Origin: Hyphomicrobiales bacterium
GTDB lineage: Bacteria; Pseudomonadota; Alphaproteobacteria; Rhizobiales; Aestuariivirgaceae
Assembly (NCBI GenBank): GCA_025363755.1
Contig: JANYLQ010000037.1
Location: forward strand, 1-64,000
Direction of reading: 5' to 3'
DNA: 64,000 bases
Notes under the pieces: generated by a model
The model's database searches: none
What the model was told of the DNA's origin: nothing
Seen by the model: only the letters and a program-made list of their open reading frames with translations
Program-made: the position numbers and the translations under genes
In this document: positions 26,728 through 49,792 of the stretch, one piece after another
Position numbering within the stretch: position 1 is the first letter of the stretch
How the letters are laid out: each line of letters starts with the position of its first letter

Positions 26728-26801
26728 CCGTCATGCCCGCGAAGGCGGGCATCTGCGTTTGAGGCCACAAAACAGAGATTCCCGCTTTCGCGGGAATGAC
26801 G
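26728..26801. repeat. REP-like inverted palindrome pair (CCGTCATGCCCGCGAAGGCGGGCAT ... ATTCCCGCTTTCGCGGGAATGACG)
   Basis: Two palindromes in opposite orientation with conserved outer CGTCAT/ATGACG; same family at 47097, 49707 and 40011/40373. Confidence 0.85.
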
Positions 26802-29043: not shown

Positions 29044-30435
29044 TCAAGCGATGCGGCGAAGACCCTTGGACCGGCTGGCAACCCAGGCCACCAGATCAGC
29101 CACGGTGGAGAGTTGTTTGGTTGCAATTGTGCCTTTTAAGGCCTTTTCACCTTGGTCGGCGATCACAGCATCAGTTTGGCCCAGTTTTTGGGCTTCTTTC
29201 AACCGCGCTTCGGTTTGGCCGACGGGGCGGATCGCGCCAGAAAGTGCGATTTCTCCAAACAGCACCGTGCCATGGGGAATCACTGTGTCTGACAAAGACG
29301 ATAGCAAGGCCGCCGCCACAGCTAAATCGACCGCCGTTTCCTTCAAGCGAAGCCCGCCTGCCACATTTAAATAAACGTCATGATTCGAAAGTGAAACCCC
29401 CGCCCGCGCATCAAGCACGGCGAGAATCATATTAAGCCGTGTTGTATCCCAACCCACCGCCGTGCGGCGCGGTGTGCCCAAGGGCGAGGGGGCAACAAGG
29501 GCCTGAACTTCGACCAGCAGAGGCCTTGTGCCTTCAACACCAGCAAAAACCGCAGTGCCGGGGGCAGGGTGTTCGGAGCCGCCCATGAATAGGCGCGAAG
29601 GGTTGGTGACTTCTTTGAGGCCACCATCCGACATTTCAAAAACACCGATTTCATCGGTCGGCCCAAAGCGATTTTTAACGGCGCGTAAAATGCGAAACTG
29701 GTGGCCCCGGTCCCCTTCAAAATACAGCACCGTATCGACCAGATGCTCAATCACCTTTGGCCCGGCAATCTGACCATCCTTGGTGACGTGGCCCACCAGC
29801 AGCACACATGTGCGCTTGGTCTTGGCATAGCGCACCAATGCTTCAGAGCCTGCTTTCAACTGCGAGACAGTGCCTGGTGCCGATTCAATCACCGGCGACC
29901 AAAGGGTTTGCACCGAGTCGATGACCACAACAGATGGCACTGGCCCATCATTCAGTGTGGCGATGATGTCAGATACATTAGTTTCGGCCGCCAATAAAAC
30001 TGGCGCATCATCAAGCCCCAAACGCGCCGCCCGCATGCGCACTTGCGCAATCGCTTCCTCGCCCGTCACATAAATCACACGCTCGCCCTTGCGGGCCATT
30101 GCGGCGAGTGCCTGCAACAACAAGGTCGACTTTCCAATGCCCGGATCACCACCGATCAGAACCGCAGACCCCGGCACAAAGCCTCCACCCGTGGCGCGGT
30201 CTAATTCCGCAATTCCGCTTTCAATGCGCGGCGGAGCAGGGCTTTCCCCCTTCAATTCATAAAGCTTGGCCAAACGGCCTTTGGGCAACGATGCCCCCTT
30301 GGCCCCTGAAGCTGGTGCCTCTGAACGCTCCTCAATAATCGTGTTCCAGCTATTGCAAACATCACAATGCCCCGACCATTTATGGGTGATCGCAGCGCAA
30401 GTTTTACAGACGAAGTTAGAAGCAGATTTGGCCAT
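29044..30435 (-). CDS. radA: DNA repair protein RadA; start likely at MAKSASNF (30435)
   Basis: Zn finger CKTCAAITHKWSGHCDVC, GGDPGIGKSTLLLQ, KNRFG motif, Lon-like C-terminus. Confidence 0.97.
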   Translation of the reverse strand: MAKSASNFVCKTCAAITHKWSGHCDVCNSWNTIIEERSEAPASGAKGASLPKGRLAKLYELKGESPAPPRIESGIAELDRATGGGFVPGSAVLIGGDPGIGKSTLLLQALAAMARKGERVIYVTGEEAIAQVRMRAARLGLDDAPVLLAAETNVSDIIATLNDGPVPSVVVIDSVQTLWSPVIESAPGTVSQLKAGSEALVRYAKTKRTCVLLVGHVTKDGQIAGPKVIEHLVDTVLYFEGDRGHQFRILRAVKNRFGPTDEIGVFEMSDGGLKEVTNPSRLFMGGSEHPAPGTAVFAGVEGTRPLLVEVQALVAPSPLGTPRRTAVGWDTTRLNMILAVLDARAGVSLSNHDVYLNVAGGLRLKETAVDLAVAAALLSSLSDTVIPHGTVLFGEIALSGAIRPVGQTEARLKEAQKLGQTDAVIADQGEKALKGTIATKQLSTVADLVAWVASRSKGLRRIA

Positions 30436-30480
30436 GGGAAGGGAATAGCATGGAACGTATAGTGAACACAAGAGGGAACT

Positions 30481-31419
30481 CTAGAAAACTATTGCGCGTC
30501 GAATAGGATGAGTTAACCCAAACGTATTTTCAAACAGTTGCATTAGTTCGTGATTAAAATGATGGCCTTCATTTTTTAGTTCTCGAAATACAGGATCACT
30601 TCTTTGATCTTTTGTTAGCAAATTAAGATGTTTTCGAATGCTGCTATCTTCAAGCTTTTCGAGAAAGTAATTATAAGTTTTTAAAACTTGATTCATTTGT
30701 GACTTTCCACAAATTTGTGCCAATCGCTCAATTACTGGTAACTCAAAAAGCTGCTGTAACAAATCTATTTTCCTGTCACGAGATCTATCCGCAGTCAAAG
30801 CTACACTGAATAGCCCACTTGCGTACAGGAGTTTCCTTGAAAAAATTAATTTTATATTCCTTACCGCCCACGGCTTTGGGGTCTCTGAACCAGCTGTCTT
30901 AAATTCGTAGTCAACAGCCATTGTTCGATAATATCTTATCACATCGTTCAGGAGGAATAATGCAAGCTGGTGGTCTGTCATTGATTTTGCAATATATTTT
31001 TCTAAAATTTCTTTTCGAAGAGACTTTAGTTCTTCAGCGTCATGAAGCCATTCTCCTTCTAGGAGGATCAACATACGTCGTGTAATGTTCTTGTTGCTAT
31101 CATCGTTCCCGCCAATATTTGTGAGAATTTCTTCACGATTGACGACATTCGCAAACGCTCCATTCGCAGCTGGTTGATTGGGGATAATATTCTTGATGTA
31201 TTTATACGCAGCGTTACACCAGTGTGGCTCGCAAGTCTCCGAACTTGATTTGATCATTATAAAATAATCTAAATCCGATTCGAGCGACGCTTCTCTTCTT
31301 GCAAAGGATCCACATGTAATAATTGACGATCCTTCACCAGTGATAACTTCTTTTAATCCTTTTCTGAGCAACTCAATTTTTTGATTTGAAAATTCCTTTG
31401 CTGTTTCGATAGATTTCAT
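30481..31419 (-). CDS. Pol-beta superfamily nucleotidyltransferase-domain protein
   Basis: CGSFARREASLESDLDYFI (GSx9-10DxD-like); ATGA overlap with upstream HD gene. Confidence 0.7.
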   Translation of the reverse strand: MKSIETAKEFSNQKIELLRKGLKEVITGEGSSIITCGSFARREASLESDLDYFIMIKSSSETCEPHWCNAAYKYIKNIIPNQPAANGAFANVVNREEILTNIGGNDDSNKNITRRMLILLEGEWLHDAEELKSLRKEILEKYIAKSMTDHQLALFLLNDVIRYYRTMAVDYEFKTAGSETPKPWAVRNIKLIFSRKLLYASGLFSVALTADRSRDRKIDLLQQLFELPVIERLAQICGKSQMNQVLKTYNYFLEKLEDSSIRKHLNLLTKDQRSDPVFRELKNEGHHFNHELMQLFENTFGLTHPIRRAIVF

Positions 31420-40010: not shown

Positions 40011-40043
40011 CCGTCATCCCAGCGAAAGCTGGGATCCAGCTTC
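40011..40043 (+). repeat. Left 33-bp inverted repeat (REP-like palindrome) of GIY-YIG element
   Basis: CCGTCATCCCAGCGAAAGCTGGGATCCAGCTTC, exact reverse complement of 40373..40405. Confidence 0.95.
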
Positions 40044-40048
40044 CTCAA

Positions 40049-40360
40049 CTAAAGTTGCAAGAGTATCAATTGAATCATGCAATCAACCCATTCAAGGTTC
40101 ATTTTTTCAACCGACTCAAATTTCCAATCCCGCTTCCACGCCTTCATTTGTTTCTCGCGCCGTATTGCGATTTCCATGCTTACCCTGTGTTCATACCAAA
40201 CAAGTTTCGCCAAACCATATTTTGAAGTGAACCCCGGAATCGATTTGTTTTTGTGGTTGGCAACGCGCGTCCAAAGATCGCTTGTCACGCCAATGTAAAT
40301 TGTACCGCGATAGCGGTTTGCAATGATGTAAACGGCAGGGTGCTTTTCAATGTTGCCCAT
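40049..40360 (-). CDS. Solo GIY-YIG nuclease domain protein
   Basis: AVYIIANRYRGTIYIGVTSDLWTRVANHKNKSIPGFTSKYGLAKLVWYEHRVSMEIAIRREKQMKAWKRDWK. Confidence 0.9.
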   Translation of the reverse strand: MGNIEKHPAVYIIANRYRGTIYIGVTSDLWTRVANHKNKSIPGFTSKYGLAKLVWYEHRVSMEIAIRREKQMKAWKRDWKFESVEKMNLEWVDCMIQLILLQL

Positions 40361-40372
40361 GAGCCTGTATCC

Positions 40373-40405
40373 GAAGCTGGATCCCAGCTTTCGCTGGGAT
40401 GACGG
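40373..40405 (-). repeat. Right 33-bp inverted repeat of GIY-YIG element
   Basis: GAAGCTGGATCCCAGCTTTCGCTGGGATGACGG. Confidence 0.95.
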
Positions 40406-49706: not shown

Positions 49707-49792
49707 CCGTCACCCCGGCGAAGGCCGGGGCTGGGCTTGACATCATCTGCACTATTTGAAAAGCCCAATCCCTGCCTTCGCAGGGATGACGG
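49707..49792. repeat. REP-like inverted palindrome pair (third variant)
   Basis: CCGTCACCCCGGCGAAGGCCGGGG ... AATCCCTGCCTTCGCAGGGATGACGG with inner GGGCTT/AAGCCC. Confidence 0.85.

Follow-up and report, generated by a model that had tools for sequence, protein, structure and literature searches.

The window, by which I mean the whole 64,000-nucleotide stretch of DNA analysed here, contains a small nuclease gene set between two copies of a single palindrome, together with two related features that lie outside this unit:

40011..40043, plus strand: left REP arm, a palindrome with its CGTC tag facing outward; the hairpin (40016-40035) has a stem of 8 bp and a loop of 4 nt, and the arm ends inward in the tail CCAGCTTC
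40049..40360, minus strand: solo GIY-YIG nuclease gene, 103 aa, catalytic residues Y11, Y22, G24, R32, H36, E69 and N88 kept
40373..40405, minus strand: right CGTC-tagged palindrome, an exact match to the left arm in inverted orientation, with the tag facing outward
26729..26801, no strand assigned: gene-less inverted REP pair (REPIN) of the 73-bp class, with an inner TCTGTTTT-type motif
49768..49791, minus strand: single CGTC REP (CGTCATCCCTGCGAAGGCAGGGAT)

The left arm, CCGTCATCCCAGCGAAAGCTGGGATCCAGCTTC, is 33 bp long and is the exact reverse complement of the right arm. Each arm is a ATCCCAGC/GCTGGGAT hairpin, reading CGTC-ATCCCAGC-GAAA-GCTGGGAT-CCA, and the hairpin ATCCCAGC-NNNN-GCTGGGAT has two exact copies in the window, where 0.27 are expected even with up to 3 mismatches. 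The sole credible gene between the arms is the minus-strand frame, which starts with ATG 12 bp from the right arm and stops 5 bp from the left one; its product matches PF01541 (GIY-YIG, E 6.5e-12 in Pfam) and no other domain. A sequence-only reading of this DNA had described the locus as a perfect inverted repeat, its arms each a hairpin, with a lone 103-aa GIY-YIG open reading frame at these distances between them, and every element of that description is exact. The arms meet the criteria of the CGTC-tagged REP superfamily, namely the tag, an 8-9-bp stem starting with AT, a 4-5-nt loop, a CCA-like tail and an arrangement in head-to-head pairs.

The host genome (3.23 Mb) encodes three such GIY-YIG genes and hundreds of related palindromes; CGTCATCCCAGC, allowing up to 2 mismatches, is found 478 times genome-wide, against 113 times for the reversed control. 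At the end of host (G000) contig C28 and the start of contig C16 (L130 and L131) there are near-identical palindrome arrays with related GIY-YIG genes, one of which has an in-frame stop; these contig ends may represent the duplication of a segment or a break in the assembly. An empty site for the window locus itself was sought in four related genomes that retain both flanking genes (G054, G012, G037 and G034), and had to be rejected: in G054, the only one aligned, the intergenic DNA is replaced and leaves no clean empty site.

The protein satisfies the criteria for a COG2827/UPF0213-like GIY-YIG nuclease (PF01541 plus catalytic Y, Y, R, H, E and N). Among 39 diverse sequences, residues Y22, I23, G24, R32, H36, E69 and N88 do not vary, and Y11 hardly does. 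The gene is under purifying selection, with a dN/dS of 0.20 at the sucC-sucD site described below. An AlphaFold2 model (pLDDT 91) has as its nearest folds, with weak but consistent E-values, the UPF0213 structure 1ZG2, SLX1 structures (including those from branched-DNA work) and UvrC-N. These neighbours support a structure-selective nuclease, a prediction for which there is no assay of cutting. No PADLOC model matched the gene, so that the definition of known anti-phage defence is not met, and searches of PHROGs, NCBIfam and Rfam gave no match.

I fetched 80 homologues, one genome per species. At 79 of their loci the two 150-bp flanks were compared with each other for their highest-scoring ungapped match in inverted orientation, a score of at least 14 counting as a pass in this strict test. 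The test replaced a strict tagged-hairpin detector, which missed CGTCACCCC-type REPs and therefore undercounted. The flanks score at least 14 in 82% of the 79 loci and at least 20 in 67%, whereas none of 344 control genes at these loci reaches 14, nor does any of the 104 controls there with gaps of at least 60 bp on both sides. Among gap-bounded controls from stretches of the host genome and of genome G248, 4 of 158 do so, one of them a DUF559 nuclease gene. When flanks were swapped between loci only 15% matched at 14 or more, and the arms are thus unit-specific. The printed flanks of the homologues display palindromes nearly everywhere, mostly with a CGTC or TGTC tag outward and a CCA-like tail inward, and with stems that differ from organism to organism. 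In the genus of the host, all 18 further copies have palindromes by inspection, and both arms change stem together, unit by unit. A class-wide profile sample gave 16 passes out of 30, most of the remainder being flanked by a palindrome on one side or both. Homologues without flanking palindromes would have refuted the sequence-only reading; across these three samples that outcome was not met. The homologue loci span several phyla, among them Campylobacterota, Bacteroidota, Omnitrophota and Patescibacteria; many are MAGs, for which contamination is a caveat. No palindromes were seen around the gene in Rhizobium tumorigenes, the Neisseria copy has dRS3 repeats close by in a different arrangement, and a phage search gave one weak match only.

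The palindromes divide into classes with 4-nt and 5-nt loops, and when this class is mapped on the nuclease tree (80 rows) it changes 9 times, against 23.5 times with shuffled labels, none of 500 shuffles being as low. The tree is built on a short alignment and many of its forks are unresolved. A comparison of nuclease and palindrome phylogenies had been proposed as a check on the sequence-only reading, and its outcome, a palindrome class that tracks the nuclease tree, agrees with it. In Sphingomonas there are two nuclease clades and two palindromes, CCCCGGCGAAGGCCGGGG and ATGCTGAACTTGTTTCAGCAT, and a Sphingobium sub-clade of the ATGCTGAACTTGTTTCAGCAT nuclease clade has ATGCTGACGAAAGTCAGCAT, with an identical outer stem and a new loop. 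A single genome, G248, encodes 10 nuclease paralogues, 46-69% identical, mostly with differing palindromes of their own. Over 380 kb elsewhere in G248 these palindromes hardly occur as genome-wide families; a REP-littered background therefore does not explain the bracketing, and the arms belong to the unit.

Palindromes with the same ends also occur without the gene. Across 391 kb of host DNA plus the window, REPs that lie next to each other are paired outward in 22 cases and inward in only 2, and the pairs fall into two length classes, 69-75 bp and 84-87 bp. The 84-87-bp REPINs have the inner CCAGCTTT in common with the nuclease unit. The abundant 69-75-bp class (for example 26729-26801) has ATTCCCGC/ATGCCCGC stems and the inner TCTGTTTT motif; no matching nuclease was found for it in the host genome, making it an orphan class. 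The arms of one Sphingomonas unit match about 85 places in the same genome. An intact unit in S. meliloti Ak57 is adjoined by a 5'-deleted one, about 160 bp long, which retains the end of the gene and is a direct intermediate between unit and REPIN. The gene-less pairs that had been claimed to exist elsewhere are thus real and have the same ends, and a deleted copy with a gene remnant can be added to them.

The gene is patchily distributed, being present in 46 of 145 alphaproteobacterial genomes, in up to 10 divergent copies per genome. In this sample, where the REP pattern used covers only part of the palindrome diversity, the median REP excess is 2.2 per Mb with the gene and 0.53 without it (p 1.8e-6), and an excess above 2 per Mb is found in 26 of 45 genomes with the gene against 14 of 99 without (Fisher p 1.7e-7, odds ratio ∼8). 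The difference holds for genomes of 2-3.5 Mb and for larger ones, but not below 2 Mb. Equal abundance of palindromes in genomes lacking the gene, another result that would have told against the sequence-only reading, was therefore not observed. Some REP-rich genomes (G221, G231, G158 and G220) nevertheless have UvrC as their only GIY-YIG protein, and REP persistence hence does not need the standalone gene.

The sequence-only reading had also called for empty sites in close relatives, and sites both with and without the unit were found at four places. Between sucC and sucD, in 81 Sphingomonas genomes, about 30 are filled (intergenic length ∼407-472 bp), many are empty (39-136 bp where the sequence was read), and one holds a gene-less REPIN. 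In Aestuariivirga the unit lies beside a transcription terminator in G004 and G050, and is missing there from G012 and G022. In another observation on the latter two genomes, which are related species, a unit occupies the same intergenic region in opposite orientations (L177 and L181), as if it had flipped between its inverted arms. Among Sphingobium plasmids, one clade has a unit at the fnrL site, where two relatives have nothing. In two others, TomTYG74 and TomTYG64 (L302, L303), the site has just one palindrome, which bears a tag at each end (CGTC...GACG) and corresponds to the outer halves of the unit's two REPs joined at the stem. A similar double-tagged palindrome is found between gltA and lpxB in Sinorhizobium, in the empty site of strain K101 (L301), which is 95% identical to a filled one that also holds a 5'-deleted unit. 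These palindromes would fit excision scars or homing targets, the strain tree not settling the direction, and empty sites in general are compatible with loss of the unit as well as with gain. No target-site duplication was detected in 54 units (TSD-like identity 1.41, where chance gives 1.32 with an sd of 0.17), which counts against a DDE-type element; as the protein has no DDE domain either, a DDE insertion sequence was rejected. No near-identical copies of a unit were seen at separate places in one genome, so recent whole-unit jumps were not caught.

The partnership of the nuclease with the palindromes is strongly supported by these observations, and its enzymatic role is inferred. I consider it probable that the locus is a compact REP-nuclease unit, in which the GIY-YIG protein is the dedicated, lineage-specific partner of the CGTC class, equivalent to a RAYT, with REPINs as non-autonomous derivatives, and with hairpin cutting or copying as the inferred activity. 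The GIY-YIG nuclease is likely the missing partner enzyme of the CGTC REP superfamily. A RAYT-like role for this protein was what the sequence-only reading had put forward; bracketing, co-occurrence, REPINs and lineage tracking support it, the enzymatic step being left as inference. In the proposed mechanism, the nuclease would recognise its own hairpin, either as an extruded cruciform or as a lagging-strand hairpin, and would incise at or beside it; host repair, annealing the palindrome arms, may then copy, delete or flip the unit and its REPINs. Cutting or movement of the palindromes by their nuclease is an inference, with no binding or cutting assay behind it.

One variant of this explanation is closer to homing: the nuclease would cut the double-tagged palindrome (CGTC-stem-loop-stem-GACG), and donor repair annealing on the half-palindromes would insert the gene. 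GIY-YIG homing endonucleases are known, and the counterparts of filled sites at fnrL (TomTYG74 and TomTYG64) and gltA-lpxB (K101) are precisely such single palindromes. However, the same sequence is expected if the unit is lost through slippage, for which the stems provide direct repeats of 8-9 bp; the strain tree leaves the direction unsettled, and only ∼12 nt of homology would be available. I regard this variant as unlikely, if still worth keeping in mind. It is improbable, in my view, that the gene is merely a passenger, serving for example defence or addiction within a non-autonomous unit moved in trans by an IS200/IS605, RAYT or other transposase. Strand-transfer activity is not known for a lone GIY-YIG domain, which speaks for a passenger, as do the genomes that retain many REPs without the gene. 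Yet the palindrome class follows the nuclease lineage and not the host, divergent paralogues within G248 have different palindromes, no PADLOC or PHROGs match was obtained, and Di Nocera et al. found no transposases flanked by CGTC REPs.

A host DNA-repair function, in which the protein is a UvrC/Cho-like accessory and the REPs adjoin it merely as terminators or intergenic debris, corresponds to how the COG2827 proteins of Caulobacter, among them one with an SOS box, have been viewed in print (PMC1839093), and the fold is indeed close to UvrC-N. The patchy presence in 46 of 145 genomes, the presence and absence at fixed sites, the perfectly matched arms against 0 of 344 controls, and the up to 10 divergent copies per genome are all at odds with it, and I hold it to be quite improbable. 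Least credible is chance capture, whereby many genes would become bracketed in a REP-rich genome and selection would have retained this one. REPs are abundant intergenic repeats, and a long unrelated host gene also lies between two REPINs, but none of the 104 gap-bounded control genes at homologue loci is bracketed, and bracketing persists in G248, where the palindromes are rare; this possibility is already disfavoured by the controls, and scarcely any weight can be given to it.

The REP-nuclease unit may not be the only pairing of its kind, and two further leads were identified:

G239 contig C12, ~122003-122673: YVGSTRD-type unit (L278), with further loci L359-L374
G000 (host) contig C1, ~30030-30512 (L128 10030-10512): DUF559 inverted repeat

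The first is a second, divergent subfamily of small GIY-YIG proteins (YVGSTRD type), for which the strict inverted-repeat criterion is reached at 10 of the 16 loci taken phylum-wide; as a lead, it pairs with another palindrome superfamily, CCTCATCCTGAG...CTTCGAGG and CGTTCGCCCTGAGCTTGTCGAAGGGC (CTGAGC..GTCGAAG). In the other, the gene encodes a solo DUF559 nuclease and is enclosed by CTCTACCGC/GCGGGAGAGG hairpins, which recur in the host genome and here form an inverted repeat of 483 bp. Class-wide, a strong arm match was obtained in only 4 of 18 DUF559 loci, many having CTCCCC-type hairpins adjoining the gene (boundaries roughly called). DUF559 is thus possibly a third nuclease-palindrome pairing, as a lead only, the class-wide evidence being weak.

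REPs are among the commonest non-coding repeats of bacteria. The origin of the CGTC superfamily, found in several phyla, has been an open question in print since 2013, and it becomes directly testable once a candidate enzyme can be named whose palindrome is matched to it in each lineage. If the pairing is true, REP/REPIN systems have had at least two origins, based on unrelated enzymes, and many genes annotated only as 'GIY-YIG nuclease family protein' gain a candidate function. More tentatively, and with somewhat more doubt than confidence, this could be a new class of bacterial mobile system, where a solo nuclease and not a transposase propagates and maintains its own palindromes, maybe generally, with two GIY-YIG subfamilies and possibly DUF559 each owning a different abundant palindrome superfamily.

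No paper joining GIY-YIG proteins with REPs was found in the open-access literature searched; subscription journals and most preprints were outside this scope, and a prior description of the link is therefore not excluded. The protein resembles the small COG2827/UPF0213 GIY-YIG proteins (1ZG2, BH0048; 1YWL, EF2693) in domain, size, catalytic residues and fold; those of Caulobacter have been discussed as UvrC-like NER accessories (PMC1839093), and an association with REPs is unreported for the family in the literature searched. SLX1 is a fold neighbour that cuts branched DNA, an activity expected on extruded hairpins, but it is eukaryotic, needs SLX4, and is not a mobile unit. The homing endonucleases I-TevI and I-BmoI are selfish GIY-YIG genes spread via DNA breaks, as the present unit may be; they possess DNA-binding tails and intron or gene targets, whereas the present protein is a bare domain between palindromes. 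The palindromes themselves share the tag, stems, loops, tail and head-to-head pairing of the CGTC REP superfamily, which includes Neisseria dRS3 and Rickettsia RPE-4/RPE-6 (Di Nocera 2013, PMC3733652). That study sought transposases flanked by these REPs, found none and reported no dedicated enzyme (PMC3733652); here a gene partner is identified. The closest parallel is with RAYT/REPIN systems (REPtrons, with GTAG REPs), in which a small gene is likewise bracketed by inverted palindromic repeats, non-autonomous inverted pairs are spread through the genome, the palindrome is specific to the enzyme lineage, and there is no target duplication. Identity with a RAYT was rejected, as the protein has neither an HUH motif nor a catalytic tyrosine (only PF01541 and a GIY-YIG fold) and the palindromes have no GTAG tag. 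The two systems thus differ in their enzyme, an HUH/Y1 tyrosine protein of the IS200/IS605 type in the RAYTs and a GIY-YIG nuclease in the present unit, and in their repeats, tagged GTAG in the former and CGTC/TGTC in the latter.
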